From: Punctularia strigosozonata HHB-11173 SS5
Taxonomy: Eukaryota; Basidiomycota; Agaricomycetes; Corticiales; Punctulariaceae
Assembly (NCBI RefSeq): GCF_000264995.1
Contig: NW_006767438.1
Location: forward strand, 789,989-853,988
Length of the DNA: 64,000 nt
Direction: 5' to 3'
Shown: positions 42,770 to 62,420 of the stretch, piece by piece
Numbering within the stretch: the stretch's first letter is position 1
Layout: each line of letters opens with the position of its first letter
Position numbers and translations under genes: made by a program
The notes under the pieces: generated by a model
Database searches by the model: none
The model's input: only the letters and a program-made list of their open reading frames with translations
What the model was told of the DNA's origin: nothing

Positions 42770-42987
42770 CCCGCTCTGACAGACCAAGTTTTGATGTCTC
42801 TCGGCTCTCGATTGCGGCTCCTGTTCCCCCTCCTCTCCCTTCTCGGGTTTCGGTATAAAACATAAAATCCCACAAAAAATCGAGATATTAACAGTTCACA
42901 AAAACATTAGATAGCGGCTTGGGGTAGTTGTAGTGGATTGTCGTCGTGGCTACCCTGTTTACTCGCTGATGCTGCTGACATTCCTAC

Positions 42988-44363: not shown

Positions 44364-45077
44364 CTAATGGGCAGCTATAGCAAATCGGACTCCCGATGCC
44401 ATACGCTGCGCGGTGCATCCTTCGGCTGCTGGCGTATTATGGGATGTTTTCCTTTTGGACGGCGCTTCGACCTGTGCCACACAAACGACAAAAAAGTGAG
44501 AACGAAGTTCGCAACCGTACATGGAAACGTACCGCGTCAACTCTGGCCGATTTTGGAGTCTCGAGATCCCAGTACCATCGAGCGGTTGTATTCGGGTCTA
44601 ATCCGAGTTCGCGCTTGATGATTTCCACCACTTCCTCTTCGTCCGTATCAACTAGTTTCTCGCGGTACGCGGTGACGTTGGTGTGGAGCGCAATAACGTA
44701 GTCATGAACGGGGTGCACTGTGCAAGCGAAGTGAAGAGTCGCGTCGCTAGCAATCATCAAACTGCGGGTGATGCGTTTGGTGCAGGAATACAGGGCGATG
44801 TCGTCCGCATCTGCTTTCATGAAACCTTTGTGGACGGCGTAGGCCCGAAGTCTTTCGAACGGTGCTGCCACACCGTAGTGAAACAGTGGACAGTCACCAG
44901 GATGAACATGTTCGCCCGTCATCCATCCAGGGAGCTGCAACAAAGCCCTGCGGTGTTTTCGGGCATGTTTGTACCATGCTTTCTGTCGTCCCATACTGAA
45001 TCAGCGTTGAACAGGCGGAAGTGAAATCAGAACTGACTTACCTCGTATTCTTCCGTATTTCCAAGGGGAAACATCAT
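44364..45077 (-). CDS. FHYG family member 1 (unrecognised family, intact)
   Basis: Three exons (45042-45077, 44533-44982, 44364-44471) join in phase to 197 aa. The core reads RKHRRALLQLPGWM, then DCPLFHYG, an R-x-R-A-Y-A-V stretch, an Asp-Asp pair, a central H-x-V-H-D-Y segment, N-V-T-A-Y, an acidic helix (DTDEEEVVEIIKRELGL) and W-Y-W-D. The last exon is basic, reading VEAPSKRKTSH and ending SGVRF... before the stop. The same basic tail occurs in member 4 (VKAPRKKKIGH...SGVRPS), so these two form a subfamily. Both sit head-to-head with a PD-(D/E)XK-like gene. No signal peptide or membrane segment is visible. The function is unknown. Confidence 0.8.
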
Positions 45078-45721
45078 TTTCGAGTGGACTCAGCGGAGAG
45101 AGACGTGCGGTAGGAGGAGCAAGGAATTTAGAGTCTGCACAAAGACGCGTTCAAGACCCATATATGTACAAACCATCGCGATCACGTGCAGAACGTAGTG
45201 GCCCTCCGCCGCGACCACGGACCCACCTTTCATTATGCTCCCGTTACATCGGCAACATCGCATATGCTACAGCGCGGACTAGAAGACTTCGGTGTACTTC
45301 CGGATCAACAAGTAATACCTGAAGCTATTCAACACATTGTTTCCCTCATTCGTCTTACAGGGACATGAGAGCGGCCTCAAGAAAACGGCAGTAGTGATTG
45401 CAGTGATTTGTTACACATGTATTTTGTCGCTCACGGTGAACTGGCCATGGAATGCAGGCCCGATTGGCAGCAGTTCGTCATTGAAGCCACTATGCCGTGG
45501 AGCTTACGCTCATAGACCACCGGCCATGTGGCGACAGCTTCATGATGTATATCCGGCCAACGTAGCGCGTTGGCCCAGGATGAGTCCGTGGCCTTACACG
45601 GCCCTATTGCGCGGCGTCCCCATGGCCGGGGATTACTGCCTGCGTATATAAACACTAGCATCAGAAGGAGGAGATCAACACCAAGACATTGCACATCACA
45701 CCCACTCTATTATACGCTCTC
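45078..45721. promoter_or_regulatory. Divergent spacer between FHYG-1 and PD-(D/E)XK-like gene 1
   Basis: A 644-nt spacer lies between divergent start codons and must carry both promoters. TATATAA at about 45645 lies some 75 nt before the plus-strand ATG. No coding frame here is supported. Confidence 0.5.
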
Positions 45722-47235
45722 ATGACAATTACCGTGAAGTCGGAAGGGATTGAGCCGGACACATCAATCACCGTCAAGTCGAAGGTTAGTCCTGATATTC
45801 GTCTTTATATCATAACATAATTTATCTGATCATCGTCCAATAGACTTACATGGAGGAGCTTTCTGAAGCCGTTATTTGTGCGCAAGAGAGCGAGCATGCC
45901 GGCTACGCCTTCGTCGGACGTATCCTCTACACCTGGGCTTCGTCGAGCCGCGTCCTTGGCGAGCACAAGGGAACCCTGCAAATCTTCCCTCAATATAGAC
46001 TGGTAGAGCCCAAATGGACGAAAGTCAAACCCGTGCTAGAGGCGGAGGCGGGTTCATCAAAGGCGGGGGAAAAGGAGGGGGCGACGGGCGAGGGAGTTGC
46101 GGACAAGGAGACGGCGAAGAAGGAGGGGACTACGCATGACGGGGGATCAAATGGGAGGCAGGAAAGCCCGGAGGCAAAGAAGACGAAGAAAAGGAAGGGG
46201 AAGAAGAAGAGGATGAAGAAGGGCAATGTATCGCGGCGCTCACCTCCGCGGGTGTGTATCCCGGACTTTGCAGCCTTTGTCTTGTCTCGAGACTCGCCTG
46301 ATGCTGAGACTTCCACCAAGGCGCCTGTGTTCCTCTGGGAATGCAAGGCGACGTCCACTCGGCACAACTGGTCGGATCCACAGGCGCGCGGATCCGCCGG
46401 CTTGGTGATACAAGGCCTGATGCCACAGCTCAGGGAGCAGGCTGACATGGTCATGAGGATCTACGAAATCGACAGCTGCTACATCTTTCTGCGTTCGGGG
46501 CTGCACTTCAGCTTGCTCAACTTCATGCGGGTCGCGTCTGCGCCTGCAAAACGTATCAGGCGTACGTCTCATCGAGATATTGTTCAAGATCTAGCTCTAG
46601 CGAAGCGTCTTCGATGCGAACCTCTCTACTTTCTTCAGACAATCTTCGGAAACCCGGATTCGCCTTTGTCTCTCCAATTCAGTTATCCTTTCCTAGCTGC
46701 ATTGCATCGGGCAAGTTCTGATCCATCCTTGCACCTCGAGTTCTCGAACTCGTTCTTCAAGCTGCCGGATGACAAGAAAGCCGAGGGTGATCCGTCGCCT
46801 GATATTCAGGTATGAGAGGATCATAAGTCAATAAGCTCGTGCTCATTGTTTTTCACTCAGAAACTCGCCCAAGAAATTCTGACCGAAGAGCTAGAGGAGC
46901 TGCAAACCGCCGTAGACGAGTTGATCGCTGCTATCAATCACCGCTCATTGAGTCGCTCGGACCGGGGGGATCCTGACTACGAGGCATCCACCGACGAAGA
47001 TTCGCAGATCCCGCCGCGTATTCATGAGACACGCGGAAGGAAACGCAGGCTTGACAATGGAGGGCAGCAGCATAACGGTGTCATCGGCACCTGGGAAGGC
47101 AGCGAGAATGGTGATGATAGCGATTCGGACGAGGATGGTTCTGATAGCGATGAGGAGGATGAAAGCGATGAGGAGGATGAAAGCAATGAGGAGGATGATA
47201 GTGGCAAGGAGCAGGATGGCGATGAGGAGGATTAG
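45722..47235 (+). CDS. PD-(D/E)XK nuclease-like protein 1 with acidic tail (unrecognised family)
   Basis: Three exons (45722-45784, 45844-46809, 46861-47235) join in phase to 467 aa. After a helical N terminus (FVGRILYTW, LQIFPQYRL) there is a Lys-rich nuclear-localisation-like stretch (KKTKKRKGKKKRMKK). Then IPDFAAFVLSR with Asp162 is followed by FLWECKA with Glu187 and Lys189. Asp...Glu-x-Lys on adjacent strands is the PD-(D/E)XK nuclease signature. A following helix carries a conserved Gln (PQLREQAD). Next comes the block EPLYFLQTIFGN...FPFLAALH. The last exon is a coiled-coil-like helix (LTEELEELQTAVDEL) and a run of Asp/Glu/Ser repeats. Nuclease activity is inferred from motif only. It is divergent from FHYG-1. 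Confidence 0.8.
47148..47207 (+). repeat. 18-nt in-frame minisatellite in acidic tail
   Basis: GATGAGGAGGATGAAAGC is repeated about three times with small changes and encodes D-E-E-D-E-S units. Such tracts change length easily, so tail length may vary between strains. Confidence 0.8.
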
Positions 47236-47721
47236 GGAGGTGACGGAGGGACAGATACTGAGAATGATTTCGGCTTCGTAAAGTGATAATACCATGCCAA
47301 AGATTGTATGTACGCGATGACTTTCTTGCGTACGCCATTACTTGAGAACAAAAGAGATAACATAGATGCAACAGAGCGGATATAATTGCGAACGACAGTC
47401 CGAGCTAAGCATATAACCCAGGCCGCGCTACCTTGGTCGAAGGATGGTTCGGAATGTGGAAGACGTGGCTCTCCAGTCAGGCCTCCGAGATGTAGGCGTG
47501 CGACGAACAAGGGAACTCGCCGCCAAACAAGCGCGACAGTTTGTGGAAGAGAAATTCGCTCTCCTTCTCTGCTCTGTTGAGGAAGGCGGACCTCCATATG
47601 TTACACGGTTATCGACGTCGGCCATCTCTTCGTCTTCTCCTGTGGACTGGTCGATAGGGTCGTCCGTGGACCGCTTCCTGTCGGCCGAGGTGGCGACGGT
47701 GGCGAAGTAGCCGTGCTCCCG
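47236..47721. other. Spacer
   Basis: This is the 3' flank of the PD-(D/E)XK-like gene 1. Overlapping open frames on both strands (47428-48156 minus, 47444-47710 plus) have no family match. No gene is called. Confidence 0.35.
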
Positions 47722-48130
47722 TTGAGCATTGAACTTCAACCACGACCTCTTGCAGTGATCGGTACAGTCAAACGCTGACCACGGCCCTCTTTCAGGAACC
47801 TTGATTAGAACCGATGATTCAAGATCACTCCATCCCCGTTGGTCACTGGTCAGAGTTCCATTGAGAAAGGGCGACCCGTATTGCATGCGATCCCATCTAT
47901 TTTCTACAGCCATCTTCAGCAACATCGACCAGCCTAATCTTTGTCTCACGGCTCCCTTTCTGGGCGCCTTACACTGGGTGGTTGCCACTGAGCCGTTCCA
48001 TTCAGAGTTCTCCGGAACATTCTGTTCGTTGAAGGACGACACGCAGGTGGAAAGGAGAACCCTCCGACGATATACGAGTGCGTGGTAGGATACTCTGATT
48101 ATGAACTTCGGCTCATGAGTCATGCTCGGG
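47722..48130 (+). pseudogene. Relic of a PD-(D/E)XK-like gene
   Basis: The first part (about 47733-47805) matches the 5' flank of PD-(D/E)XK-like gene 2 at 60679-60751. The second part (about 47865-48130) matches the 3' half of that gene around 61605-61860, including the block for FLGALHWVV and the end of its second exon. The region between, with the nuclease-like motif, is absent. This is therefore a decayed third copy and not a functional gene. It lies between the intact gene 1 and FHYG-2. Confidence 0.8.
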
Positions 48131-48521
48131 AGGTAGAAACGTAGCAGTAGGTGCACTCAAACAGAATGCGACGAAGAAAGAAGCCGTACCGGTGGTGCTT
48201 CGGAGGACGTGTGTCGTGTAAGATCATCATTCAGACGGAAGACCACCGAACGGGGCGCATTGAGATGACTCCCGACGTTGACGATATGTAGGAAGTCGAG
48301 TAAAGGCGTGTAAGAACGAGTACAATAGGACCCCATCTGATCCTGAGAGGGGCCATAGCCGTAACTAGCCTTCGCACGTCAACGATGTAATGGCTGAAAT
48401 GGTATCGCATATTTGCATATGCGCCGAACAGTTTGGATTATAATCTGGCAGCATGACAGGACGGCGACGACAGTGAACAATGGGTACGCGACTAAAACAT
48501 AGACGAAAGGAGCTGGAGAAG
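48131..48521. other. Spacer between relic and FHYG-2
   Basis: No gene or repeat could be supported in this stretch. Confidence 0.4.
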
Positions 48522-49309
48522 CTAGACTCGCCGCGCGCCTTTGCGCTTGGTGGCGTAGGACACGTACCTTGCCCGTATCTCCAGGTCCACGTCCTCGAAT
48601 ACAGGTTGTTGATCTTCGTTCTCAGTCTGTGTCACTTGCATATGTAGTTTAACGGCCTTAGGAATTTTAGGGTTCGTCAGCTGTTTTATACATGTTTGAG
48701 GTCAGAAAATTACGATCGGTTCGCCTTGTGAAGGCCGGGGCTTACAGTGTCAGACGTCGCGGTAGAGGGATTCTCGCAATCCCAGTACCAGAGGGCCTCT
48801 GAGTCCGATGGCAGATCGAGCTCAGCCTTGATGAACGCCACAATTCTTGCCACCTCGTCCGGTGTCAAAGGCGACTCGTACTTGTTGAAATTCGTGTAGA
48901 AGGCGATCATGCGGGTGAAATGATAATGATGGATGATAGTATATCGTAGCGGCTTGGCATTGCCACGTTTGGCAATAAGGTCGACCATCCGTCGCACATG
49001 GCATACGACACGCACGTCGTCTTGTGCATCCTTGGAGTTGAACAGCTTGTGCTTGATTCCATAAGCGCGAAACCTGTCGAGGGATACACCTAGTCCGTAA
49101 TGAAACAGTGGACAGTCTTCCCTGCGGAGGTACTCGTCGTACATCCATGGTGGGAGACGCTTAACTGCTCTCCGATGTTCCACTGCGAATGCGAGGAATG
49201 ATTTCTGGGATGCGCCTCGTCAAACATGCGCCGAACGTGCTGGAAAGGACGGTACCTTGCAAACACGTTCAGCATCGGAGAGTTGTTGTGAATCGGACCC
49301 TGTCGTCAT
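48522..49309 (-). CDS. FHYG family member 2 (unrecognised family, intact)
   Basis: Three exons (49256-49309, 48746-49204, 48522-48680) join in phase to 223 aa. The protein starts MTTGSDSQQLSDAERVCK, continues FLAFAVEHRRAVKRLPPWM, and has DCPLFHYGLGVSLDRFRAYGIKH, an Asp-Asp pair, C-H-V-R-R-M, and FYTNFNKY. It then has a helix ending IKAELDL and ALWYWD. The last exon encodes IPKAVKLHMQVTQT, EDQQPVFEDVD and a basic end. This tail is shared with members 5 and 6, which defines a second subfamily. Its 3' end faces the relic PD-(D/E)XK gene, as FHYG-5 faces gene 2. The function is unknown. Confidence 0.82.
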
Positions 49310-49413
49310 CGTGTCTCAAATCGAAACGCGGGGCTATATGTCGCAGGGCTGAAGGAACGAAAGATACGGAAGGAAGACGTCGCGACTCACGTGCACGTGA
49401 TTAGTGGTTGGTG

Positions 49414-49556
49414 TTCTTGGTTCGTCGTACGATACAAAGGTTGTATGATAGGAGCACCTACACACGCATCTCCCGTAGGTTTGGGTGAAAGACAGGTGGC
49501 CCCCAGGGGCCGACCGTCCTTGGGCGCGATCCGAGGGAGAGCCCGGAGGCTCACCC
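49414..49556 (-). repeat. Ngaro split direct repeat B2
   Basis: This 143-bp segment is identical by eye to 49758-49900 and forms the outer end of the element. A 73-nt unique spacer separates it from A2. Confidence 0.9.
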
Positions 49557-49629
49557 GCGGCTCGCTGATAGGGGATGCGATGATGTTAGTGAGCTTGGCA
49601 GATGCCTACAGGACGCGGGTGGGCGGGTG

Positions 49630-49759
49630 CTGATGCAGCTAGCGGTGCGCCTCTACTGACGAGGGAGTCCGGAGGGATGAGGAGCGTGTCACGAGTCGGA
49701 GTTTCAATTGTCTCCCTCGAGCCCAAGACGGCGCACCGAGCTTCGCTCGGTGCTCGCTT
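49630..49759 (-). repeat. Ngaro split direct repeat A2
   Basis: This 130-bp segment is identical by eye to A1 at 55343-55472. It abuts B1, overlapping it by two bases. Confidence 0.9.
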
Positions 49760-49900
49760 CTTGGTTCGTCGTACGATACAAAGGTTGTATGATAGGAGCA
49801 CCTACACACGCATCTCCCGTAGGTTTGGGTGAAAGACAGGTGGCCCCCAGGGGCCGACCGTCCTTGGGCGCGATCCGAGGGAGAGCCCGGAGGCTCACCC
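49758..49900 (-). repeat. Ngaro split direct repeat B1
   Basis: This is the inner copy of the 143-bp repeat, just beyond the recombinase frame. Confidence 0.9.
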
Positions 49901-49958
49901 AAACCGCCGCACCAGCCGAAGGGGGAAGACCGAGGATGAGCCCACCCCGGCGAGAAGG

Positions 49959-51266
49959 TTATGGTTGTGTTTGAGGGCGCCTGAACGGCCGGACGCGTCG
50001 CATGTGCTGGGGGAGAATATCCTCGATCGACCTCCAATACCGCAGAAATGCGTCCGATGACCACCTCCCTGCCGTCTTGACGACATGCGGTGGAACACCC
50101 GCTAGCAGGAGCTCCGTCGTCCCGCCTATCCGGAAGCAGTGCCCCGTTATACGAGGGTACCGGTTTCTTGACCAGATTGCGTTGCAGCGCGCCATGAACG
50201 CCGTCTTCGTGAGTGCCCTTGGGCCTTTCGGATGTGTGTACGCGAAGAGCGGGGCTTCGACTGGGAGGCGGCTCCTCTGGAGGTGGAACCGCAGGGCGTA
50301 TATCGGGTCCGTGGAGCCGCGTTGGTGCTGAAGGTAGACGACTTCTCCCCGGTTGTACTGCGTCTTGGTCGATGGTAGAGTTAACGCGTAAGACTTCGAA
50401 TGGGTGGAAGGTTTGTGGAATGCGGAGCGTTCTGGGGTCCGGATGAGACCCGTGTTCTGCGACGACGGGAGCACTTCGCCTGCTCGGAGCTGACCCCAGA
50501 ACAGAACGCAGGCGGCCGCATACACTGCTGAATCAAATGGAGAGTCGAAGTTCAGTGATTTGTGCAGACAGCGCAGCATATCGCGGGTTACTGGTACACG
50601 CGCCGGTTTCCGGGAACCCTTAGGTCGGAGGTTCTCCACGCCCTTGACCGTGTATTGGAGTCGTGTCCCGCCGAGCCAAGGTGCGTTCTGGGCGGTATGC
50701 CAGGCTTTCAGCGCCGCTATCCAGTTCCGAGCGGTGCCCCCTGCGAGTTGGCCGGCGCCTTTGGCGACAAATGCGCATAGCGCTATTTCCTGCGCCGGGA
50801 ATTGGTCGACCTCTGGAATGCGCTCTGCGATGCAGAACCTGATATACCTCTCTACTACTGCGCTGTAGCCCCTCAAGGTGCTCGATGCCCAGCCCGCCTT
50901 AATAGTCTTCTCGAGTTGGACCCGAGTTGGTTTCGACAAGGTGATCTGGCGAGGGTTATGATAGAGCGTTGTGGTAGCCAGGCCCGCCCCCGGGCGGAAG
51001 TGAGCTAAGGCGTGTCTGCGGGTGGGGGTCTTTGGGGGCCCAGAGATGTGCGCTGACGGTGGCGTGTTCTGAGTGTAGTTGCGCGGTGCTCTACTCGCTC
51101 TCGTGTGCGACATGCTGGGGGCAGAAGGGTGCGGGTGCCCCCTGGTCAGCCCGGGTGAGGCTGTGCCTGAGAACGGTGTGACCATATCTGCCTCGAGACT
51201 AAGGTACTCTATGCCTTCTTGAGATACAAGTAAACGGAGTTGCAAACTGCCTTCACACAGAGCCAT
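49959..51266 (-). CDS. Ngaro tyrosine recombinase
   Basis: A 435-codon frame. An N-terminal helical DNA-binding part (KAGWASSTLRGYSAVVERY) precedes the catalytic domain. The catalytic domain has the first Arg in GQLRAGEV, then H-C-F-R (HxxR) and a candidate nucleophile Tyr in LRYWR. Tyrosine recombinases integrate the circular cDNA of these elements and are the hallmark that sets DIRS/Ngaro apart from LTR elements. The frame looks whole. Confidence 0.92.
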   Translation of the reverse strand: MALCEGSLQLRLLVSQEGIEYLSLEADMVTPFSGTASPGLTRGHPHPSAPSMSHTRASRAPRNYTQNTPPSAHISGPPKTPTRRHALAHFRPGAGLATTTLYHNPRQITLSKPTRVQLEKTIKAGWASSTLRGYSAVVERYIRFCIAERIPEVDQFPAQEIALCAFVAKGAGQLAGGTARNWIAALKAWHTAQNAPWLGGTRLQYTVKGVENLRPKGSRKPARVPVTRDMLRCLHKSLNFDSPFDSAVYAAACVLFWGQLRAGEVLPSSQNTGLIRTPERSAFHKPSTHSKSYALTLPSTKTQYNRGEVVYLQHQRGSTDPIYALRFHLQRSRLPVEAPLFAYTHPKGPRALTKTAFMARCNAIWSRNRYPRITGHCFRIGGTTELLLAGVPPHVVKTAGRWSSDAFLRYWRSIEDILPQHMRRVRPFRRPQTQP

Positions 51267-51592
51267 ATGGACTTTTTGGGTCCAGGGTTGGGGGGAGGAG
51301 CTTTAATATCTTGGATGAAGCGACCGCACACGCAGTTGCCTGCCACCACCCCGGGGCCCTCACCCCCAAACCAGTGGGCGCAGGTGCCTCGACCTCTGGT
51401 ATATCCTTCCACCAATGTCTGGAACCTCTGTGAGGATGTGTACGCTAAACGTTGTGAGTCCTCATCTGTATGGCTAAGGAGTGAGGTACCTCTGTACTGA
51501 GCCGCTTCCGACCCATCTTCATAAGCAATCGAGCGCTCAAATTCGATTTTTACAATCATTTCCCGTTCTTGGGACCTCCTGAGTGAGCACAT
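51209..51592 (-). CDS. Small open frame between RT and recombinase of the Ngaro element
   Basis: The 127-codon frame reads EREMIVKIEFERS near its start and later CAHWFGGEGP and CVCGRFIQD. No domain is recognised. It overlaps the start of the recombinase frame by 58 nt in another phase. It could be an accessory gene or a leader exon; its coding status is uncertain. Confidence 0.4.
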   Translation of the reverse strand: MCSLRRSQEREMIVKIEFERSIAYEDGSEAAQYRGTSLLSHTDEDSQRLAYTSSQRFQTLVEGYTRGRGTCAHWFGGEGPGVVAGNCVCGRFIQDIKAPPPNPGPKKSIWLCVKAVCNSVYLYLKKA

Positions 51593-51911
51593 CTCCTCGA
51601 CAACCCGATGGCCTGTGACGAGAGGGGGAAAATTAGCAATCGCATGTGAGGGTGAAACGCCTTAGAGAAGATGACAACGCACTTGTGCGATACATGGCAG
51701 TGGGCGGTGAGGAGAAGGAGGAGGCGCAGGTCGCCGTTGTGTTTTCCTTGAGCTGTTGCTAGCCGACGTCTAGCGGTGCTGCGCATTATTGCGTAAAATT
51801 GTAACGTAATGAGAGAAGAGGGGGGGAGAATTCCGTCTGTCTGGAGGAAGAGGGAGGTCCCGCCTCGCGCCTTCTATTCTGTGCTGGCCCCTTAAATCAA
51901 GGCCGAAACAG

Positions 51912-53969
51912 TTATATTAACTCTGGTCTAACTATTAACGAGGAAATACAGTAAGGAATTTTGAAGGTGATCGATGAGCGCGGCATATCTGTGAGAGGAA
52001 TGCCCCGCGAAGGGGGATCTGCCTTGTTCTCCGCCGACGGGACGTATCGGGGGGTAATCCATATGGAATGTGCCCGCATTAAGGTCACAATCCGCTGCAA
52101 AACACGGTTGTGCTCCAGGTTGCGGGATTTCCCGGCCTCTAGCGCGCCTATGACGCTCTGGTTATCCGACCGGATGATTAGATGGAGGCCGTTCAGGCCT
52201 CGCTGCAGGGCGAGGCGGAGGCCGAACTCGATTGCGACCATCTCGGCCCAGCCGATTTTCCGCGCCTCCGACCTCCAGCCCGGCGCGAGTTTCCAGGCGT
52301 CCCATTCGCCGTTCAATACGACGCCTATACCCCACGAGGTAGAGGCGTCCACCCAGAACTCGCTCTCTGTAATCTCGGGCGGGCGCTGCAGAGAGCTTCC
52401 ACATGGGCCCGTCGATAGCGCGGTTCTCCAAAAGGAGATGTCGGTGAGAACTTGACTGCCCGGGGTCCGCCGGGCGAACACCGAAGCAGCCGGTGGGAAT
52501 GACGACGCGAACCTTGATATGGCGACGAGTCTCGAGCGTCCTTCCGGGATTGCCAGACTGCAGTGTACGAGGGTCCCGGTGATCTGTTCTGCTTCGCGCC
52601 GCATGAAAGTGCTGCCCGCGGTCCACGGCTCGAGTTTGGTCAGGTAGCGGGCCCTCTTGTCGTCCGGGATCGAGACCCATTTGCGTTCGAGATCCCACAG
52701 GAAACCGAGGTAACGGAATATCGACGCGAAGTCCTTGGTCTTCGACGGTTTCCACGGCCAGCCCAGCTGCTCGGCTAGCCGGTAGATCTCGTCCAGGCCG
52801 TATGCGTACCTGGGCGATCCGTGCGTGCTCTCGCGGGTGGGGTAGCGGACGAAGGCGAAATCGTCCACCCACTTCTTGAGCGCATCTACTCCGGATTTCA
52901 GGTATAGCGCTGCCATACAGTCCGCCACCCTGCCCCACACGCCCGGCGAACTCGCTGGTCCGAAAGGTGCACAGGAATCAATCCAGAATTGCCCCTTCCA
53001 TTGGACTACGAAGTGCGGTTGTTGGTCGGGCCGTATTGGGATGCAGCGAAAGGCCGAATCGACGTCAAGCGTGGCCACTTGCGTGAGCGGAGGGGCGTCC
53101 ATGACGAGCACCACCATTTCCGAAAACGTGCCCCACTCGCACGGGAAGGCGTCCGAATCGATGGCCGAGTTTACGGAAGCGATGGCCGGGTTGCTGCGCG
53201 GGAAGGAGAAATCTTGAATCATCCGCAACTCCGAGGTCCCGGCCTTCGGTACCGCGCCCAGCGGTGAGGTCCTGAACGGGCCGATGAGGTTCTCCAGCCT
53301 CGCGCGATCAAAGGGCCCGGTATACCGACGGGCTGCGCGTTCTTTTTGGATGTATAGGTCTATGGCGTCCGTATTTGACAATGCTGACTTGTGATTAGGT
53401 GGAATGTAAGTGGTTTGTACGAGGGTGGGGACACCCATATCGAACCCGAGTCTCATGCCTCGCGGCACGTCCAAGAAGATATCTAACAGGCCTGTTGAAG
53501 ACAAGCGCGATTCCCATTCATCTGCTTTGAACGGCCGGGTCGTCACGGCCAGCGCTAGCGATGACGCAGAGGCTGGCGGAATGGGAGTCTCCGCAAAGCG
53601 TGCAGCGGTGCTCCCCATGTGCGCATGTGCCCGAGGCGGAGCATCCCCTTTGCATGTTGAAGTGGAAGCAGTAGCGCTTCCCCGTTTTGTCCGCGTAGCC
53701 CCCGTCTTGAGTTCTCGCGATGAAAATCGGATTCCCGTTCGCGAGCGTCTTGGCGAAGCACTCCTTCGTCCGGTGGGAGTAACGCCCGCACAGGAAGCAG
53801 CTTCGAAAGGAACTACCGGTCTGGTCAGAGGCCCGGCCTTTCGTCGGGAGGGAGCTTCGGGGCCCGCGCCCGGTCGTTGTCCCCCCGCCGGATTCCCGTC
53901 TGCGATTCGCCAATGCGAGCTGAGCCTGTTGCGGCTGCGGTTGGAGTATCCTCCTCCCCAGATGAGCAA
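51912..53969 (-). CDS. Ngaro reverse transcriptase and RNase H
   Basis: A 685-codon frame. The reverse transcriptase shows PLGAVPKAG, MIQDFSFPRS, TLDVDSAFR, APFGPASSPGVW and the catalytic W-V-D-D-F. The RNase H domain follows, with WVDASTSWGIG, MVAIEFGLRLAL, IRSDNQSVIGALEAG and AENKADPPSRG. Its first part overlaps the Gag-like frame in another phase. It copies the element RNA into DNA. The frame looks whole. Confidence 0.93.
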   Translation of the reverse strand: MLIWGGGYSNRSRNRLSSHWRIADGNPAGGQRPGAGPEAPSRRKAGPLTRPVVPFEAASCAGVTPTGRRSASPRRSRTGIRFSSRELKTGATRTKRGSATASTSTCKGDAPPRAHAHMGSTAARFAETPIPPASASSLALAVTTRPFKADEWESRLSSTGLLDIFLDVPRGMRLGFDMGVPTLVQTTYIPPNHKSALSNTDAIDLYIQKERAARRYTGPFDRARLENLIGPFRTSPLGAVPKAGTSELRMIQDFSFPRSNPAIASVNSAIDSDAFPCEWGTFSEMVVLVMDAPPLTQVATLDVDSAFRCIPIRPDQQPHFVVQWKGQFWIDSCAPFGPASSPGVWGRVADCMAALYLKSGVDALKKWVDDFAFVRYPTRESTHGSPRYAYGLDEIYRLAEQLGWPWKPSKTKDFASIFRYLGFLWDLERKWVSIPDDKRARYLTKLEPWTAGSTFMRREAEQITGTLVHCSLAIPEGRSRLVAISRFASSFPPAASVFARRTPGSQVLTDISFWRTALSTGPCGSSLQRPPEITESEFWVDASTSWGIGVVLNGEWDAWKLAPGWRSEARKIGWAEMVAIEFGLRLALQRGLNGLHLIIRSDNQSVIGALEAGKSRNLEHNRVLQRIVTLMRAHSIWITPRYVPSAENKADPPSRGIPLTDMPRSSITFKIPYCISSLIVRPELI

Positions 53970-54735
53970 TATAGAGGTCGTCCCATATAGCGCGGTGGTA
54001 CTCGCGCGGGTCGATAGGAGTGTTGAGCCTGCGCCTGCGAATCTCGATGTCGTAGGCGAGCCACACCGGCCATATGTTATCGCTGCTGACTCCTCGGCGC
54101 AGGCGGATGTTCTCGTGGTGGATAAACCAATCTTGGTACTCCTGCGGAAGGTACTCTTCGAACAGCTGGAGATATCGTTGCCAGGCCTGCAACCACTCCG
54201 CGAACGAGAGCTGCATCTCCCCTTCCGGCGAGAGCGGCTGCTGAACCGGGACTAGACCCCCGGATTCGATCTGCCATAAGTTGTTCAGGTTCGCTGTCGT
54301 GTCGATACCTTGAGCCATGCACGCCGCGTCTGTGAGATGATGGAGCGGTACGTGTTTCTTATGTCCTCTTTCGAAGATGTCAACAATTTGTTGCGGAAGC
54401 ACATAATAATTCACGTCTGCGAGGACTCCGGCGATACGCGCCGGTCGGCCCCGCGATGTTACAGGAGTAAGGGGAGCATGGGACGGGACAGCTTCGTCAA
54501 TGCGTTGTGATTGTCGAGAGGGCCACGCCTGGGGGGTCGCGAAGGATTGATGTGGGCGCTGCGAGGCCGGAGGGGATGAGCTTGGCTGGTCGTCCGGCTC
54601 GTCCGGTGGGGGGCTGGCGTACTCCGACGATGAGAGTGCCTGGTCGTGGCTCTGACGCCCTGGAACTGTTTGTGAGTCCCGTTTCGACAGCAAGCACGGT
54701 GTGGGCAAGGAAGAAGGAAAGCAAGGCGATAGCAC
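53518..54735 (-). CDS. Ngaro Gag-like protein with zinc knuckles
   Basis: A 405-codon frame with a Pro/Ser-rich N terminus and a helical middle (SFAEWLQAWQRYLQLF, EYHRAIWDDLYIAH). A CX2CX4HX4C zinc knuckle (CFLCGRYSHRTKEC) follows, then a Cys/His-rich stretch (CFHFNMQRGC, CAHGEHRCTLCG). This is the usual nucleic-acid-binding Gag of fungal YR elements. Confidence 0.85.
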   Translation of the reverse strand: MLSPCFPSSLPTPCLLSKRDSQTVPGRQSHDQALSSSEYASPPPDEPDDQPSSSPPASQRPHQSFATPQAWPSRQSQRIDEAVPSHAPLTPVTSRGRPARIAGVLADVNYYVLPQQIVDIFERGHKKHVPLHHLTDAACMAQGIDTTANLNNLWQIESGGLVPVQQPLSPEGEMQLSFAEWLQAWQRYLQLFEEYLPQEYQDWFIHHENIRLRRGVSSDNIWPVWLAYDIEIRRRRLNTPIDPREYHRAIWDDLYIAHLGRRILQPQPQQAQLALANRRRESGGGTTTGRGPRSSLPTKGRASDQTGSSFRSCFLCGRYSHRTKECFAKTLANGNPIFIARTQDGGYADKTGKRYCFHFNMQRGCSASGTCAHGEHRCTLCGDSHSASLCVIASAGRDDPAVQSR

Positions 54736-54785
54736 TGGCTTTTAGCCATAGTGAAAGCCGGTGACGGCGAGAAAGCAAGCAAGCA

Positions 54786-55316
54786 TCATCCATCTGGCAA
54801 GAAGGCCAGGCAAGCAAAGGAGAATACTGGTGGTATGGGACTCAGTAAGGCTCGTCGCTCACCTGACGATGCTGGAGGCGGGAGCGGTCGTAATTCCGCT
54901 CTGGCCCGTGCCGAGTGATGCGTCTCCCTTTCGCGACCGTCCGAGCGTGTCCTACGCCCCCGGAGAGTCGTGCGCTGGCTGGTCGTACGAGATTGCGAGC
55001 GCGCCGAGGCGGATGGGAGGCGGGGTTCTTGATCGCCCACTATGCCTTGCCAGTCTGAGCCTTCGTCTCCGGTTCCCTGGGCACGACCCTGTTGATATTC
55101 GTTCTTCTCCTTCTCCGTGTAGAGGGCGGAGTAGGACGGGTGGTCGATGAGCTCGTCCTTTCGCTCTACCAGGGCCTGCTTTGTCCGTGCCTTGAGTTCG
55201 TGTACGTTCCCTCCGGGCTCGACGCCCAATGCCTCTGCGAGCTCTACTAGGGCTGCTCGATTGAGCCGGTAGTGCGGTTTGTCGAAAGAGTTGTCGCGCA
55301 GAGCCCAAGGCGGCAT
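54786..55316 (-). CDS. Ngaro 5' open frame with SAP-like helix-turn
   Basis: A 176-codon frame just inside A1. It starts MPPWALRDNSFDKPHY and carries LNRAALVELAEALGVEPGG, which resembles a SAP-type DNA-binding motif. The remainder is charged and Ser/Arg-rich. It may be the first part of the Gag region; the family is known to use spliced or overlapping expression. Confidence 0.6.
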   Translation of the reverse strand: MPPWALRDNSFDKPHYRLNRAALVELAEALGVEPGGNVHELKARTKQALVERKDELIDHPSYSALYTEKEKNEYQQGRAQGTGDEGSDWQGIVGDQEPRLPSASARSQSRTTSQRTTLRGRRTRSDGRERETHHSARARAELRPLPPPASSGERRALLSPIPPVFSFACLAFLPDG

Positions 55317-55342
55317 GCTTTCACTTGCAAGTGCTTAATATA

Positions 55343-55472
55343 CTGATGCAGCTAGCGGTGCGCCTCTACTGACGAGGGAGTCCGGAGGGATGAGGAGCGT
55401 GTCACGAGTCGGAGTTTCAATTGTCTCCCTCGAGCCCAAGACGGCGCACCGAGCTTCGCTCGGTGCTCGCTT
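55343..55472 (-). repeat. Ngaro split direct repeat A1
   Basis: This is the outer 130-bp repeat at the 5' end of the element and is identical by eye to A2. Confidence 0.9.
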
Positions 55473-55556
55473 GAGCTCCAAGTACCTTTCTCTCCGAAAA
55501 CATGAGAATTATCACGACTGTTGTCGTAAAATAGCTGTAGGCAGGCAAGACATTTC

Positions 55557-56310
55557 CTATGGATTATTGTCTGCCCCACTTGCAATCATCGAACGTGCCT
55601 CCGAGTCGGGTGAAAGTCCAAGCTCGGTCTTGATGGATCTGAAGACCTCCTCGTCCTGCTGCTCCGAACGATGGCGCAGATGCTTGTTGAAGTTCGAGTA
55701 GAGGGCGACCATACCGGTGTAGCGATCATGCGCAATCATCTCGTGACAACCTGAATTTGCAGCGCTTCGAGATATCATTGGCTATCTTCCCAACGCAGAG
55801 AACGACCGATAAGTCGTCCTCTGCCGCCTCGTGCGGGAGCAGCCCATGTTGGATGCTGTATGCGCGGAACCGTTCGAAGGGAACACCCAATCCGTACTGA
55901 AGTCGTGGGCAGTCACCCTCGCGAAGCATCTCATCGCACATCCAAGGAGGAATGCGCGTCAACGCGGTTTGATGTTCTACCGCGAATCGGAGGAATGCCT
56001 TTGTCTGCAGGAAGTGTAAAATCATCACAACCTTGAATGCCCGTTCAGCATCGCCGGCGGCCATCTCGTGGTGGTTCACGCTGATATGCAATCGTAGGCT
56101 TTCAGTGTGTGGCGAGGGTACATGGGGTACGACGGTCGCTGGCTCCGAAGCTGTGCGCGTCGCGTCCGCTCCAGTGATCGTGAAACCCGGGGAGATGGTA
56201 TACGCGGCCCTCAATGAACTCAACATATCGCCACATTCGAGGAAAAAGATATAATATGGCATGGATGGCGACGAAATGGCGACAGTAACGACTACCCTGC
56301 TACTATCCAT
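55557..56310 (-). pseudogene. FHYG family member 3, decayed copy
   Basis: The core (FAVEHQTALTRIPPWM, EGDCPRLQYGLGVPFERFRAYSIQHG, EDDLSVVLCVGKI, YSNFNKHLRHRSEQQDEEV, IKTELGLSPDSEA) is nearly identical at DNA level to member 6 at the right edge. The W-Y-W-D motif and the conserved tail exon are missing, and the frame is interrupted once in the core. The Ngaro element starts 85 bp beyond its broken 3' end, but its insertion alone does not explain the loss, since the missing part is not found on the other side. It lies head-to-head with the 221-aa gene, copy 2. Confidence 0.75.
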
Positions 56311-56496
56311 ACGAGAATCACGGCCTGAAAATTTGTCTGCACCAGAGTTGAGCTCGCCATACCCGTCTACTAGATGGTATCATGCCATCGAGAAGCGCTA
56401 CGAGGAGACGCGTTCAGAATGGTCGACACATCCGCATCGGTCCGCCAGCGGGGTGATCGTGGATGCTGGAATATCCGCCCCGAAGTCTCCACCGCG

Positions 56497-56503
56497 TATA
56501 AAA
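56497..56503 (+). promoter_or_regulatory. TATA box of 221-aa gene, copy 2
   Basis: TATAAAA lies 131 nt upstream of the ATG, with the same pyrimidine-rich leader as copy 1. Confidence 0.7.
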
Positions 56504-56633
56504 GCCCAACGTTCTCTGACCACGTTCTCTAACTCTTGGATTCTGCTCTTGAGTTCTTTCCGTCATCATCCTTCTTTACCTACCTTGCATACCTTACTAC
56601 CTACCTCCTTACCTCTATCTCCTACCTCCTACC

Positions 56634-57410
56634 ATGAACTTCTACCTTACCGCCTCCTTCCTCCCCTTTCCCTCCCACTTCCAACAGGTTGCCGTGGTGG
56701 AGAAGCTCGAGATGATGGTATGCCCGCCCCTCCACTTGACCTGTAGTAATGGCCCAAGCTGACGATTCATCAGGACGAACTTGAGGTCGAGGCCCTCCTG
56801 GAGGTCAGCGCTACCTACGAGGCCAACGATGCCGGTGAGGATATGCGTGTGCCCCCGCCGGCGCCGCGTATCCCACAGGAGGAGTTCGGTTTCTCCGACG
56901 GTGCGATGTCCTCCGGTTCTCTCAAGGCGCCTGCATCAATGGTCGAGGAGTGGTTTCCTCGCGCGGGCGTCTTCGAGGACAAGGAGGTGGACGGATCCAA
57001 GGGGACGGTCTCTGCGCGTCGTCACAAGGCGGACGCAAGGCCGTTGCCGCGGAGGCGGAACGCTTTCGAGGAACCAAGAGAGCGTTCCGTCGTAGTCAAG
57101 GAGAAGATGGAGGTCGAGAAGATGGGCGTGGGTGCCACTGCTGCGAAAGGGAAGGTCCAGTTCGCTCGAAGCCCACTCCGGTACGCCTTTCTCGTCCTCC
57201 GCACTCCGATTCCTTCGCTCACATTGCATCCACAGGCCGAGCTCTGCTCGTAGCCGTGAAGGCTCCTCGAGCGCCTTCCCCGACGCCGCTTCGATCAAGA
57301 CCACGTCCCCTCAGCTCGACGTGACGAAGCGTTGCCAGAAGCCCCGCCCGGACTCTCTGATCTTCTACCGATCCGTCTACTTCGCCCGCTCTGACAGAAC
57401 CAAGTTTTGA
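56634..57410 (+). CDS. Unrecognised 221-aa protein, copy 2
   Basis: The exons are 56634-56717, 56774-57180 and 57236-57410, with exactly the lengths of copy 1 and the same introns. Against copy 1 the changes are Ser to Ala, His to Tyr, Ser to Ala, Val to Ile, Ala to Thr, Thr to Lys twice, Ala to Val and Gln to Arg. Only one further codon (Leu, CTG/TTG) changes silently. The third exon is identical. Most changes add positive charge in the basic middle. Both copies are intact, which suggests they are kept by selection or were recently homogenised. Confidence 0.75.
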
Positions 57411-57682
57411 TGTCTCTCGGCTCTCGATTGCGGCTCCTGTTCCCCCTCCTCTCCCTTCTCGGGTTTCGGTATAAAACATAAAATCCCACAAAAAATCGAG
57501 ATATTAACAGTTCACAAAAACATTAGATAGCGGCTTGGGGTAGTTGTAGTGGATTGTCGTCGTGGCTACCCTGTTTACTCGCTGATGCTGCTGACATTCC
57601 TACAGCTTTATGCAGATCTCCATTCTCATTGCGGGCTGGGTAGCCGCGCGCCTGGAACCGAAACGAAAAAAAGATAAGTCCC

Positions 57683-58126
57683 NNNNNNNNNNNNNNNNNN
57701 NNNNNNNNNNNNNNNNNNNNNNNNNNNNNNNNNNNNNNNNNNNNNNNNNNNNNNNNNNNNNNNNNNNNNNNNNNNNNNNNNNNNNNNNNNNNNNNNNNNN
57801 NNNNNNNNNNNNNNNNNNNNNNNNNNNNNNNNNNNNNNNNNNNNNNNNNNNNNNNNNNNNNNNNNNNNNNNNNNNNNNNNNNNNNNNNNNNNNNNNNNNN
57901 NNNNNNNNNNNNNNNNNNNNNNNNNNNNNNNNNNNNNNNNNNNNNNNNNNNNNNNNNNNNNNNNNNNNNNNNNNNNNNNNNNNNNNNNNNNNNNNNNNNN
58001 NNNNNNNNNNNNNNNNNNNNNNNNNNNNNNNNNNNNNNNNNNNNNNNNNNNNNNNNNNNNNNNNNNNNNNNNNNNNNNNNNNNNNNNNNNNNNNNNNNNN
58101 NNNNNNNNNNNNNNNNNNNNNNNNNN
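57683..58126. other. Assembly gap (N run)
   Basis: There are 444 undetermined bases. About 364 nt before the gap (57319-57682) recur after it (58127-58489) with one base difference noted, so the contig ends overlap. Confidence 0.95.
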
Positions 58127-58407
58127 GACGTGACGAAGCGTTGCCAGAAGCCCCGCCCGGACTCTCTGATCTTCTACCGATCCGTCTACTTCGCCCGCTC
58201 TGACAGAACCAAGTTTTGATGTCTCTCGGCTCTCGATTGCGGCTCCTGTTCCCCCTCCTCTCCCTTCTCGGGTTTCGGTATAAAACATAAAATCCCACAA
58301 AAAATCGAGATATTAACAGTTCACAAAAACATTAGATAGCGGCTTGGGGTAGTTGTAGTGGATTGTCGTCGTGGCTACCCTGTTTACTCGCTGATGCTGC
58401 TGACATT

Positions 58408-58920
58408 CCTACAGCTTTATGCAGATCTCCATTCTCATTGCGGCTGGGTAGCCGCGCGCCTGGAACCGAAACGAAAAAAAGATAAGTCCCAATTCCCTCG
58501 GATAACCGATTGCATTGCGACGCCTCATGAGCATTTGCTGAAACCTTCCACAGGTTCTCCCTCTTTGAGGCGATCGCGTATTTCGGGAGAAGATATCCTC
58601 GTCGCGGCTTTGGAAGCCGCATGCCTGGCACCGAAACGGAAAAAAGTGAGTATCACTTTCTTCGGATTTCATCGCGGCGTCAGTCGATCACCTGTGCTGA
58701 GACCTTCCACAGGTGCTCATTTTCCGAGGCGATCGCCGACTTCAGTTCTCGTGCAGCTTCGGCGAAAAATATCCTCGTTGCGGCTTGGTAGCCGCTCGCC
58801 TGGCACTGAAACGGAAAACGATAAGTCTGAATTCCTTCCGACCGCCTTGCGGCGCTACACAAGCATTCACTGAAACGTTTCGCAGTTTTCGATTTTGGAG
58901 GCGATCGCGCACTTTCGATG
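58408..58920 (+). repeat. Tandem array of exon/intron-like units, right copy
   Basis: Three to four units with the same logic as at 42988-43620. Coding-like stretches end in ACCGAAACGGAAAAAA and are followed by GTGAGT (58646) or degraded ATAAGT. The intron-like part then closes with a CTGA and CTTCCACAG. The unit at 58555-58645 is shorter than its left counterpart, so unit structure has drifted between copies. Confidence 0.65.
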
Positions 58921-59351
58921 CACAAGAGGCAGATGTAACGTCACATGTTGCCCTTGACGCCGCTCCCTGCCGCTCCCAGGACCTCTTCCCTTGGTCAGCA
59001 TTCGCCGTCCCTCACGAGAAATATTACGCGTATTTAGTCAGAGCGGAGCAAATGCTCGGTTTGGTAGAGCCCGTAGCGCACGCGTCGGCCTGATCAATGA
59101 CGCTCTCCACTCATCGTAGTATAGACTTCACAACAAGACGCGTGCCGGCCTTCAATTTCACTGTATATCATTATTCATCCCGTATCCCCGCAATCAAAGC
59201 GCGACAACTCAACAAATTACTCCTAACAACTCAATATGCAGAAGCTCCGTACCAGAGACATGTGGCGAAACTAACAGAAGACAGGAAGATGTCACACATG
59301 TACTGATAATAGAGTAGGGACGATGACGAATAGAGACGGTGGAGTTTACAG
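58921..59351. other. Spacer
   Basis: This lies between the array and the FHYG-4 stop. An open frame runs on from the array to 59093 without a motif. Confidence 0.35.
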
Positions 59352-60038
59352 CTACGCGTTAGACGGCCGAACACCCGACGTCTTGATCGATGCTTCGTTC
59401 TCTTGGCCCCGCAATGTGCTGTGACCAATTTTCTTTTTGCGCGGTGCCTTCACCTGGTCACCATCAAGAACACAAATCAGCAAACATAAACGCGGTTGTT
59501 CATAGAGACGTACCGTGAGTCTTTCGTGCGCTGGAGTACTAATATCCCAGTACCAAAGGGGTTCCGCGTCCGGGTCCAAATTGAGCTCTCGCTTGAGAAT
59601 GTCGATAACCTCATCTTCGTCGTCTTCTGAGAGTTCATCCTCGCATAGGGAGAAGTTGCTGTACAGCGACAATACAAAGTCGTAAATGGGGTGCACGACA
59701 ACAGCCAAACGAATTCTCGCGCGGCAGATCATCGTCAAGTTGCGAAGCATGCGATCAGAACAGGTCATCATTCTGGTGGCACCCGCGGGGATGAACTCCT
59801 TGCGGATGGCGTAAGAGACCAGTCGGTCGTGTGGGACCCCCAGGCCGTAGTGAAAGAGCGGACAGTCGTCCGGTCCGACATCTTCTTGAACCATCCAAGA
59901 CGGGATTTGTGGCAAGGCTTGACGATGCTTTTCAATGAATTCGTAACGAGCTCCCTAAACTCATGTTTGGACAAATCTTAGCTAAATGAAGCCAGTTGGA
60001 CGTACCGCACACGGGTCCAGGTTTTTCCTTGACGACAT
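59352..60038 (-). CDS. FHYG family member 4 (unrecognised family, intact)
   Basis: Three exons (60011-60038, 59514-59953, 59352-59453) join in phase to 189 aa. The first donor is a weak GTGCGG, chosen because it restores ...SSLRFIEKHRQALPQIPSWM. The core has DCPLFHYGLGVPHDRLVSYAI, V-V-V-H-P-I-Y-D-F, SLYSNF, an acidic helix (EDDEDEVIDILKRELNLDPDAE) and PLWYWD. The last exon is basic (VKAPRKKKIGH) and ends SGVRPSNA, as in member 1. It is divergent from PD-(D/E)XK-like gene 2 across an 822-nt spacer. Confidence 0.78.
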
Positions 60039-60860
60039 TGCAGCAAGGAAATCGAAAAATGGGGATCAGCCTACTTGAAGCGATAAACGGCAAGACAGCC
60101 AAAGGACGAGTGGCTCGAGGGAACTTCTCAAGTTGAACAAGACGCGAAGGATCGCCTTTTATGTGAATGAGGCGACACGGTCACGTGCACTCTTCAAACC
60201 TCCTCGAGCCAACTTGCCTACGTCCACCGGCAACTGGACAATGGCTCATACATTGCGCTAATGAACTCCTTGGCATGCGACCACTCACGTATTATCTCCG
60301 CAAATTAGTTCTCGCTGAGCGACAGCAAGATCAACCGATGGCCGTAATCCGAGACGGACATCTGAGTGTGGTTTAGCCTCTACCGATGGCCTGCTGCAAG
60401 CACTACCCCACACTACCATCCACCCGCGCCGTGTTGAAGCCTCCAGGACTTCTGTACTAATCACTAACTTGCTCTGTCAGCGTTGGAATCAAATAACCCG
60501 TCGCTAAGACGAACCTTGCCGAGCACATCGAACCGCTCAATTTCTGGCGCTTCGCCATGGTGAGGCGGGAATTCATGCCAACGGTCTCTGCCAGTGTCAG
60601 GTATGTGGTCTAGCTGTATCTTTCCCATAGCCATCGGCTCGCACTCGGACTATGGCAGATCCACTCGAGGTCGCTCTCATTGAGCATCAACCACGACCTC
60701 TTGCAGTGGCCGGTGTAGTCAAACGCTGACCACGGCCCTCTTTCATGGCCCGGGTTAGAATCGATGGTTAAATAACACTCGATTCCCGTTTCTCAATGGT
60801 CAGAGCTCCCTTGATACACATACACTCACCCCTGCCTGCCCTGCTGCGAGCACCTCATTC
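60039..60860. promoter_or_regulatory. Divergent spacer between FHYG-4 and PD-(D/E)XK-like gene 2
   Basis: This holds both promoters. A block at about 60679-60751 (TCAACCACGACCTCTTGCAG..., GTCAAACGCTGACCACGG...) is conserved at about 85-90% with 47733-47805 upstream of the relic copy. It may be a regulatory element or an untranslated exon. A plus-strand open frame at 60167-60376 is not supported as a gene. Confidence 0.55.
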
Positions 60861-62272
60861 ATGGCGGCCCGCTCGATCAATATCACCGAGGATGTGAGCT
60901 GATATTCTTTTTCAGGAGACTTGCGCATTGTGACTGATGTAACTCACTTAGGACTTTTACGACAAATTACGCGATCCCGTGTTTTATGCACGCGAAGCGG
61001 ACGCCGATGAGCACGATAGTTACAGTTTTGTTGGAGAGATACTCTATACTTGGTCTTGGCCTATCTCGCGTCTTTTGGAAGGTGATCGCAGGGGGACCAT
61101 GCAGATCTTTCCGCAGATGACCTTAGCCTCGTCGAAGGTGAAGGACAAGGTGGAGCCAGAGGCAGAGGGCGAGGATGGGAATAAGGCTGAAAGAGATGGC
61201 GAGGCGCGAACGGCAGGGGAAGTCATACCTGAACAACAGAAGAAGAAGGAGCAAAAGTTCAGGTCTTACCCGGACTTCGGTGGCCTGATTCTCCTTCGCT
61301 CGCCGAACGGTCCAAGGAAACACCTTGCATTCCTTTGGGAGTGCAAAGCCGCGCCAGCTTACGTCAACTGGTCTGATGTGGACGATGGACTGACCCACGA
61401 CGGCGCCTGCAAGGTCATCAAGGATTCTCTGCCTCAACTTCGCAGGCAGGCCGAAATGGCGATGAAGCAATTCGAAACTCAGACATGCCATACATTCCTC
61501 AGATCGGGCCCGTTCTTCAGCCTTCTCGAATTCAAGGAACGCGAGGACGTACCGCAACCTACTACACTCACAGAGTTGCCCTTGCACAGGAATCTAGCGG
61601 AGGAGCTGGAAAGGGCGACCCGTATTCCATGCGATCCCATCTATTTTGTACAGCCCATCTTCCGCAACATTGACCAGCCCAATCTCCGTCTAACCGCTCC
61701 CTTTCTGGGCGCCTTACACTGGGTGGTTTCCGCTGAGCCGTTCCATTTAGAGCTATCCCAAACATTCTTTTCGTTGCCGGACGACGAGCAGGCGGAAGGA
61801 CAACCCTCCGACGATATACGAGTGCGTACCAGAATACTGTGATCATGAAGTATAGCTCATGAGTCTTGCTCAGGACGAGGCACGGAATTTATTGAACGCT
61901 AATCAAGAGCAATTGACGAACGAGCTGGAGGTGTTGCAAACGGTTGCCAGTGACGACACCCCAGACGTTGTAGATCCAGGGCACGGTGTTGACCCCAACT
62001 TCAGGGGCAGGCGCAACAAATCAGAAGAGCCATGTACGCCGAGCAAAATCCGCCTTACACGCGGACTGCGATCCAAGACTGGTTTGCCGCTTATGGAACC
62101 TTTGAAGCTCGAAGGGAGAAAACGGGGCCCGGGCGCGAGGGTTAAGAGGGTGTTAATCGTTGAGAATGTCAATGATGAAGAAGAGGATCAGGGCGAATCC
62201 AAGGTTGACAACAATGTAGACGTTGCAAATACTGACCAGGCGGGCGTGCGCGATGGAGGAGTAAGTTCTTAG
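60861..62272 (+). CDS. PD-(D/E)XK nuclease-like protein 2 (unrecognised family)
   Basis: Three exons (60861-60893, 60952-61821, 61874-62272) join in phase to 433 aa with the same exon architecture as gene 1. The N-terminal SFVGEILYTW and MQIFPQMTL match its paralogue. The linker is shorter and ends in QQKKKEQKF. The motif region reads YPDFGGLILLR with Asp119, then FLWECKA with Glu131 and Lys133, then PQLRRQAEMA. The block PIYFVQPIFRN...PFLGALHWVV follows. The last exon is a Gln/Glu-rich helix (QEQLTNELEVLQT), then basic and acidic patches, without the long acidic repeat of gene 1. Its 3' end is 148 nt from the 3' end of FHYG-5. Confidence 0.8.
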
Positions 62273-62420
62273 GGACAACGGCTTCAAACACGATTTCTAC
62301 GCTTCCATATCCGGTACTATAGTCAGTCGTAGCCTAATTAAATCGCATAGTCATCTAAGTCTTGTGCATCACAGATGCACGACGAAGAGGTAAGCGTGCT
62401 CATGTGAGAGACTGGGAACA

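Follow-up and report, generated by a model that had tools for sequence, protein, structure and literature searches.

The locus described here raises the question of whether two genes that twice lie head-to-head in the genome of Punctularia strigosozonata HHB-11173 SS5 encode proteins that work together. The window, meaning the whole stretch of 64,000 nucleotides that was analysed (contig NW_006767438.1, positions 789,989 to 853,988 of the forward strand), contains two families of interest. Members of the first are called FHYG genes (F1 to F6) and are of alpha, beta or gamma type, the alpha type being the one found in the head-to-head pairs. Members of the second (D1 to D3) encode a nuclease-like protein, D. 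An earlier note on this DNA had suggested that the two products act jointly, for example as a nuclease and its partner. We tentatively prefer a reading of this kind, in which D would be a nuclear nuclease and alpha-FHYG its dedicated partner.

The head-to-head pairs and the array that holds them

The same note had described an intact FHYG gene on the minus strand head-to-head with an intact D gene on the plus strand, twice, and this description stands: each of the four gene models has an open reading frame at the positions given below. Each has three exons and GT..AG introns of 51-61 base pairs (bp), and the intron positions are equivalent between copies within the FHYG family and within the D family. 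The splice sites are predictions, picked by eye from the GT..AG signals and the reading frame. The short introns, together with the neighbouring genes, point to a fungus.

44364-45077, minus strand: F1, intact alpha-type FHYG gene (exons 45077-45042, 44982-44533 and 44471-44364; 197 amino acids)
45078-45721: head-to-head spacer of F1 and D1, 644 bp between start codons
45722-47235, plus strand: D1, intact nuclease-like gene (exons 45722-45784, 45844-46809 and 46861-47235; 467 amino acids)
59352-60038, minus strand: F4, intact alpha-type FHYG gene (exons 60038-60006, 59954-59514 and 59453-59352; 191 amino acids)
60039-60860: head-to-head spacer of F4 and D2, 822 bp between start codons
60861-62272, plus strand: D2, intact nuclease-like gene (exons 60861-60893, 60952-61821 and 61874-62272; 433 amino acids)

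A profile search of every reading-frame piece of at least 25 residues in the window found six FHYG and three D loci, none of them outside the interval 44-64 kilobases (kb), after two FHYG rows with E values of 0.57 and 0.99 had been dropped. The order of the array is F1(-), D1(+), D3(+, decayed), F2(-), a retrotransposon, F3(-, broken), F4(-), D2(+), F5(-, broken), F6(-). Since all six FHYG loci are on the minus strand and all three D loci on the plus strand, any D gene flanked by FHYG genes on both sides faces one of them head-to-head and the other tail-to-tail; F5, for instance, is tail-to-tail with D2 at a distance of about 150 bp. The members outside the two pairs are as follows.

47727-48131, plus strand: D3, decayed third nuclease-like copy, frame broken
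48522-49309, minus strand: F2, intact beta-type FHYG gene without a head-to-head D (exons 49309-49256, 49204-48746 and 48680-48522; 223 amino acids)
55560-56061, minus strand: F3, broken gamma-type FHYG with a frame change and without the WYWD end; ends approximate
62424-63180, minus strand: F5, broken beta-type FHYG with an in-frame stop at 62818-62820; ends approximate
63400-64000, minus strand: F6, gamma-type FHYG, open to the window edge, its 5' end outside the window

The gene order alpha-FHYG(-), D(+), beta-FHYG(-), gamma-FHYG(-) is identical in both copies, and thus the two pairs are probably derived from one duplication. The simplest reading is that a four-gene cassette was probably duplicated once in tandem. 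The pairing does occur twice, as the note had said, but with both pairs in one repeated cassette it preserves one association and not two.

The third D copy consists of two pieces. A promoter-like piece at 47727-47864 is 82.6% identical to 60678-60814 in the D2 promoter region, a core piece at 47865-48131 is 86.2% identical to 61609-61875 in the D2 core, and about 794 bp are missing between them. D3 has no adjacent alpha-FHYG gene and is the only D copy of the array so placed. A decayed D without its alpha-FHYG fits joint loss of a pair, though this is a single case.

Paralogous genes were compared by a Nei-Gojobori count of nonsynonymous and synonymous differences (proportions pN and pS) and of nonsynonymous divergence (dN). 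For exon 2 of D1 and D2, pN was 0.352 and pS 0.797 (279 codons); for exon 2 of F1 and F4 the values were 0.356 and 0.657 (147 codons) and for F2 and F6 0.330 and 0.672 (180 codons). With the synonymous sites close to saturation or beyond it, the exact ratios are unreliable. Protein change is clearly restrained, and FHYG and D are old, constrained genes. Exon-2 protein identity is 45% for D1/D2 and 43-44% for F1/F4, and the exon-2 dN of the partners is nearly equal (0.476 and 0.484, respectively). Given that both pairs are intact despite synonymous sites at or near saturation and restrained protein change, their linkage is probably old.

The DNA of the array has diverged unevenly. Block 41018-42243 is 97.3% identical to 56428-57653, F3 and F6 are 93.1% identical over about 347 bases (55596-55941 and 63653-64000) and F2 and F5 are 67.4% identical. 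Self-alignment of F1-D1 with F4-D2 gave no match of at least 100 bp at E <= 1e-8 and short matches only (23-80 bp, E 0.0006-0.002); self-alignments below 100 bp and tblastn rows with E above 0.1 were dropped. From this unevenness it seems that, besides the old duplication, one or more duplications or conversions have taken place in the array recently.

Partnership or passive linkage

In the reading that we prefer, an old cassette of alpha-FHYG, D, beta-FHYG and gamma-FHYG would have been duplicated in tandem, and its core would be the divergent pair of D and alpha-FHYG. D would be a probable metal-dependent nuclease of the PD-(D/E)XK type acting in the nucleus, an activity suggested by its motif only. 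Alpha-FHYG would be a small protein encoded on the opposite side of the spacer shared with D; it may bind D or the DNA target of D and so restrain or direct D. We infer a physical partnership from the linkage, the similar divergence and the one decayed D without an alpha-FHYG. The main support, which suggests such a partnership, comes from the probably old linkage, the similar divergence and the identical catalytic-type residues of D1 and D2.

The FHYG tree (midpoint root; F3 and F5 entered as N-terminal pieces only) bears on the partner. F1 and F4 group with support of 100/100, F2 and F5 with 87/91 and F3 and F6 with 99/98, and one branch with support of 100/100 sets F1 and F4 apart from the remaining four FHYG rows. 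The fork of F2, F6 and F5 did not resolve when the tree took the C-terminal piece of F5 and omitted F3. The view of F1 and F4 as a paired subfamily was thus borne out, and the clustering of paired members, set beforehand as a check, was found on the FHYG side, there being only two intact D genes. The last exons of F1 and F4 are alike (V-x-A-P-x-K/R-K...) and unlike those of F2 and F6. Their net charges are +3 for F1, +6 for F4, +3 for F2 and -2 for F6. Since the tail of the unpaired F2 is also at +3, the basic tail claimed for the paired members survives as a distinctive sequence, but its basic charge is no clean mark of pairing.

The spacers were examined for signs of shared regulation. The word TCACGTGCA has four sites in the window, counting both strands (45182, 49387, 49392 reversed and 60181), where 0.65 would be expected under a first-order model. 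All four are just upstream of F1, F2 and F4, and only there; these are the three intact FHYG genes with a 5' end inside the window. Counted in gene orientation from the first letter of the site, the distance to the start codon is 113 bp for F1, 91 and 86 bp for F2 and 151 bp for F4.

45182-45190: TCACGTGCA in the F1/D1 spacer, on the F1 side, its start 26 bp from that of a TATA-like word
49387-49400: TCACGTGCACGTGA upstream of F2
60181-60189: TCACGTGCA in the F4/D2 spacer, on the F4 side, its start 26 bp from that of a CATAAAA word

The TATA and CATAAAA words were picked after looking, and neither is present upstream of F2. The three upstream stretches (300, 104 and 300 bp) were compared with shuffled versions and with random triples drawn from the leftmost 44 kb of the window, 5000 of each; a nine-letter word common to all three in one direction appeared once among the shuffles and twice among the triples, the word itself having been noticed beforehand. 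TCACGTGCA contains CACGTG, which is the E-box core of basic helix-loop-helix factors. Given that the unpaired F2 also has it, TCACGTGCA is, as judged from its placement, a promoter feature of FHYG genes, paired or not, and gives no sign of co-regulation with D. Accordingly, the sharing of a spacer was not accepted as a sign of co-regulation, since the only strong word in common is on F2 as well and other common words are few. A second word, CACGGCCCT, at -125 of D1 and -130 of D2, was set aside as a weaker coincidence that is not beyond chance by word counts.

Two known kinds of gene pair offer a comparison. Head-to-head or bidirectional pairs are defined as genes on opposite strands with transcription starts less than 1000 bp apart (PMC2648788). 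The F1/D1 and F4/D2 pairs, on opposite strands and 644 and 822 bp apart (start codons, not transcription starts), resemble these, but the word that they share sits at FHYG promoters whether paired or not. The HD1/HD2 mating-type genes of basidiomycetes form divergent, repeated and old pairs that are kept together. The F/D pairs are likewise divergent, repeated, probably old and kept together; they differ in that the Pfam scan of seven D and FHYG pieces gave no homeodomain.

Several observations weigh against a partnership. Because a single duplication accounts for both pairs, they count as one case of association. F2 has stayed intact although no D gene lies head-to-head with it, and thus pairing is not needed for survival. 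The dN of the whole proteins is less equal than that of exon 2 (0.600 for D1/D2 and 0.517 for F1/F4). The presence of TCACGTGCA on the unpaired F2 removes the support that the word might have lent to co-regulation with D, and of nine-letter words the spacers have 3 in common in the same direction, where about 2 are expected by shuffling, and 5 in reverse. Finally, neither D nor FHYG gave a significant profile, sequence or fold match in the searches made. The claim that the two products work together therefore keeps the constrained genes, the F1 and F4 subfamily, the near-equal exon-2 dN and the D motif on its side, and loses the weight of a second, independent pair.

The main rival, nearly as likely as a nuclease with its partner, is passive linkage: two unrelated, lineage-specific families that chanced to be neighbours in a segment which underwent tandem duplication, each of them under its own constraint and with no joint action. 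The same alpha, D, beta, gamma order in both copies fits one segment duplication, and the 97.3% and 93.1% repeats show recent duplication or conversion in the array too. The intact F2 without a head-to-head D and the marking of paired and unpaired FHYG genes alike by TCACGTGCA also agree with it. It is harder to reconcile with the survival of both head-to-head pairs, highly diverged but intact, beside the broken F3, F5 and D3.

The D and FHYG proteins

D1 and D2 both carry PDF...LWECKA, identical between them, with 25 residues from the D to the E in D1 and 22 in D2. By the definition of the PD-(D/E)XK motif, the P-D...(D/E)-x-K catalytic-type residues are present in both proteins. The structure prediction for D was built on an alignment of two sequences and its mean predicted local distance difference test score (pLDDT) was 35.5, that is, the fold prediction failed. 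In the model each half of the motif falls on a strand, and a long helix and two strands follow; around the motif these elements include strands at 109-116 and 123-130, a helix at 150-173 and a strand at 178-185. This order fits the PD-(D/E)XK core weakly, at very low confidence. None of the 389 Foldseek matches of the D model (E <= 10) reached E <= 0.001, the best being 0.14. The list was headed by family II pyrophosphatases and acetyl-CoA carboxylase chains, and its best 50 of 389 matches included no restriction-type nuclease and two DHH-type nucleases by name (RecJ-like and NanoRNase A, E 1.1 and 1.7). Given the pLDDT of the model, nothing is drawn from this list.

Sequence searches with exon 2 of D1 and D2 gave no Pfam match at E <= 10, none in PHROGs better than E 0.26 and none in PADLOC or NCBIfam at E <= 1, and D had no match by sequence in the PDB at E <= 10. 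No kinase model was found at E <= 10 in exons 2 and 3 of D1 and D2, which hold all but the first 21 and 11 codons, respectively. D resembles the PD-(D/E)XK superfamily in its motif, P-D-F...L-W-E-C-K-A, and, weakly, in the helix and two strands that follow it in the low-confidence model, and differs from it in that exon 2 has no significant match in Pfam, PHROGs, PADLOC, NCBIfam or the PDB. The PD-(D/E)XK label of the earlier note is thus plausible by motif, and D may be called PD-(D/E)XK-like but not a proven member.

The tails of D are charged. The last exon of D1 is acidic, with a net charge of -34 as against -6 for D2, and the acidic end of D1 is encoded by an 18-bp tandem repeat of 5.1 copies at 47142-47232. 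Lysine/arginine-rich stretches, and these only, suggest that D is nuclear. A general rule of charge pairing between the FHYG tail and an acidic D tail was considered and rejected, because the D2 last exon is at -6 against -34 for D1 and the F2 tail is as positive as that of F1.

It is unlikely that D lacks nuclease activity, its motif being a relic or a product of chance, and that this protein with its charged tails serves instead in the nucleus, as a scaffold or in chromatin. The long acidic D1 tail with its coding repeat, the lack of a profile match for exon 2 better than E 0.26 or of any PDB sequence match at E <= 10, and the low-scoring model without a significant Foldseek match would all suit such a protein. 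However, the PD and E-x-K residues are identical, at a plausible spacing, in exons of 45% identity, and the predicted element order fits a nuclease core, if weakly.

The FHYG model is a compact alpha/beta domain of moderate confidence (pLDDT 69.5, predicted template modelling score 0.65). None of its 711 Foldseek matches in the PDB, where the list opens with circularly permuted ribosomal protein S6 and KH domains (best E 0.047), and none of its 804 matches in BFVD (best E 0.027) reached E <= 0.001. A structure search of both proteins, one of the checks proposed beforehand, gave no match at this threshold for either model. Profile scans covered the central exon of three of the six FHYG loci. 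They gave only DUF7614 in Pfam (E 0.023, below the cut-off) and Csx3 in PADLOC (E 0.034, not significant), each for F2, two PHROGs rows (E 0.19 and 0.27) and no NCBIfam row. Eight PDB sequences matched FHYG by sequence with a best E of 0.0034; seven were designed TPR proteins, each matched several times over about 26 residues, and one was an epimerase (E 0.047), and all were taken as chance.

The proposed nuclease recalls the Spok spore-killer proteins of Podospora. Killing by Spok is reported to need a domain similar to restriction endonucleases, and a Spok protein is reported to go to the nucleus (PMC9972908). A nuclease-like domain and a nuclear site are comparable to what is proposed for D; the difference is that Spok holds nuclease-like and kinase-like domains in one protein, whereas D has no kinase match and its candidate partner is a separate gene. 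By analogy, the cassette may work like a split Spok but is not a Spok. That it would be a two-gene conflict system of mushroom-type fungi, a split-gene counterpart of Spok with D as the genome-cutting nuclease and alpha-FHYG as a separate guardian in spore killing, nonself recognition or mobile-DNA defence, is a speculative extension that we consider improbable. If the partnership of D and alpha-FHYG is true, it would be a fungal nuclease with a dedicated partner, neither of them matched by the profile libraries tried. Apart from this, the analysis yields two protein families under constraint for which the profile libraries gave no significant hit, a repeated cassette whose members are in part broken and in part intact, and a word in the promoters of the intact FHYG genes.

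A mobile-element origin, with D a former element endonuclease and FHYG its DNA-binding partner, is very doubtful: the tandem spread, the repeats, the retrotransposon within the array and one weak inverted pair (31 nt, 74%) flanking F4-D2 agree with it, but none of the four inverted pairs found in 43400-48530 flanks F1-D1, no transposase model was found in the D and FHYG pieces scanned, and the introns are at equivalent positions in both copies.

Relatives elsewhere and surroundings of the array

Pattern scans gave 85, 30, 27 and 1 matches among IMG/VR contigs and 25 and 39 among GTDB contigs, none of which was confirmed as a relative; as the scans were seeded by short exact peptide patterns, distant relatives can be missed. 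Exon 2 of D2, the sole query, had no match at E <= 10 among plasmids. Among phages it gave 42 records, all of Vibrio phages, and these were taken as chance; the best five had E values of 4 to 6 and covered 22% of the query. No such FHYG/D pair is described among the literature matches listed (titles and abstract starts), which does not imply absence from print. Rfam, at gathering scores, and a tRNA scan returned nothing in the window.

The retrotransposon lies between F2 and F3, outside the cassette, and begins 105 bp upstream of the F2 start codon.

49414-55472, minus strand: retrotransposon with split direct repeats (49414-49556 identical to 49758-49900, 143 bp; 49630-49759 identical to 55343-55472, 130 bp)

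It has an RNase H-like match (RVT_3, E 2.4e-5) and a sub-threshold CCHC knuckle. We take it to be Ngaro/PAT-like from the motif of a putative tyrosine recombinase, which has no Pfam match.

The 97.3% identity noted above extends over the first 1.2 kb of a larger repeated block (41018-43464 and 56428-58838). This block has repeats inside it, and each copy is interrupted by an assembly gap (42244-42769 and 57683-58126). No known gene was recognised in it, and the one 167-codon frame scanned had no Pfam match. The inverted pair that flanks F4-D2 consists of 31 nt at 58905-58935 and 62352-62382, 74% complementary, and may be due to chance.

Further left, related repeats are present at 5195-5859, 6504-7076 and 24700-25477, one copy being inverted. 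The frame at 6504-7076 matches a short-chain dehydrogenase in Pfam, and the other two are alike by eye. The genes left of the array are of eukaryotic type and by Pfam encode an ion channel (9109-10215), a HAD hydrolase (21343-22575, below the cut-off), a WD40 protein (25733-26536), a Bin3-type methyltransferase (34535-35164) and a carboxylesterase (39045-40433).

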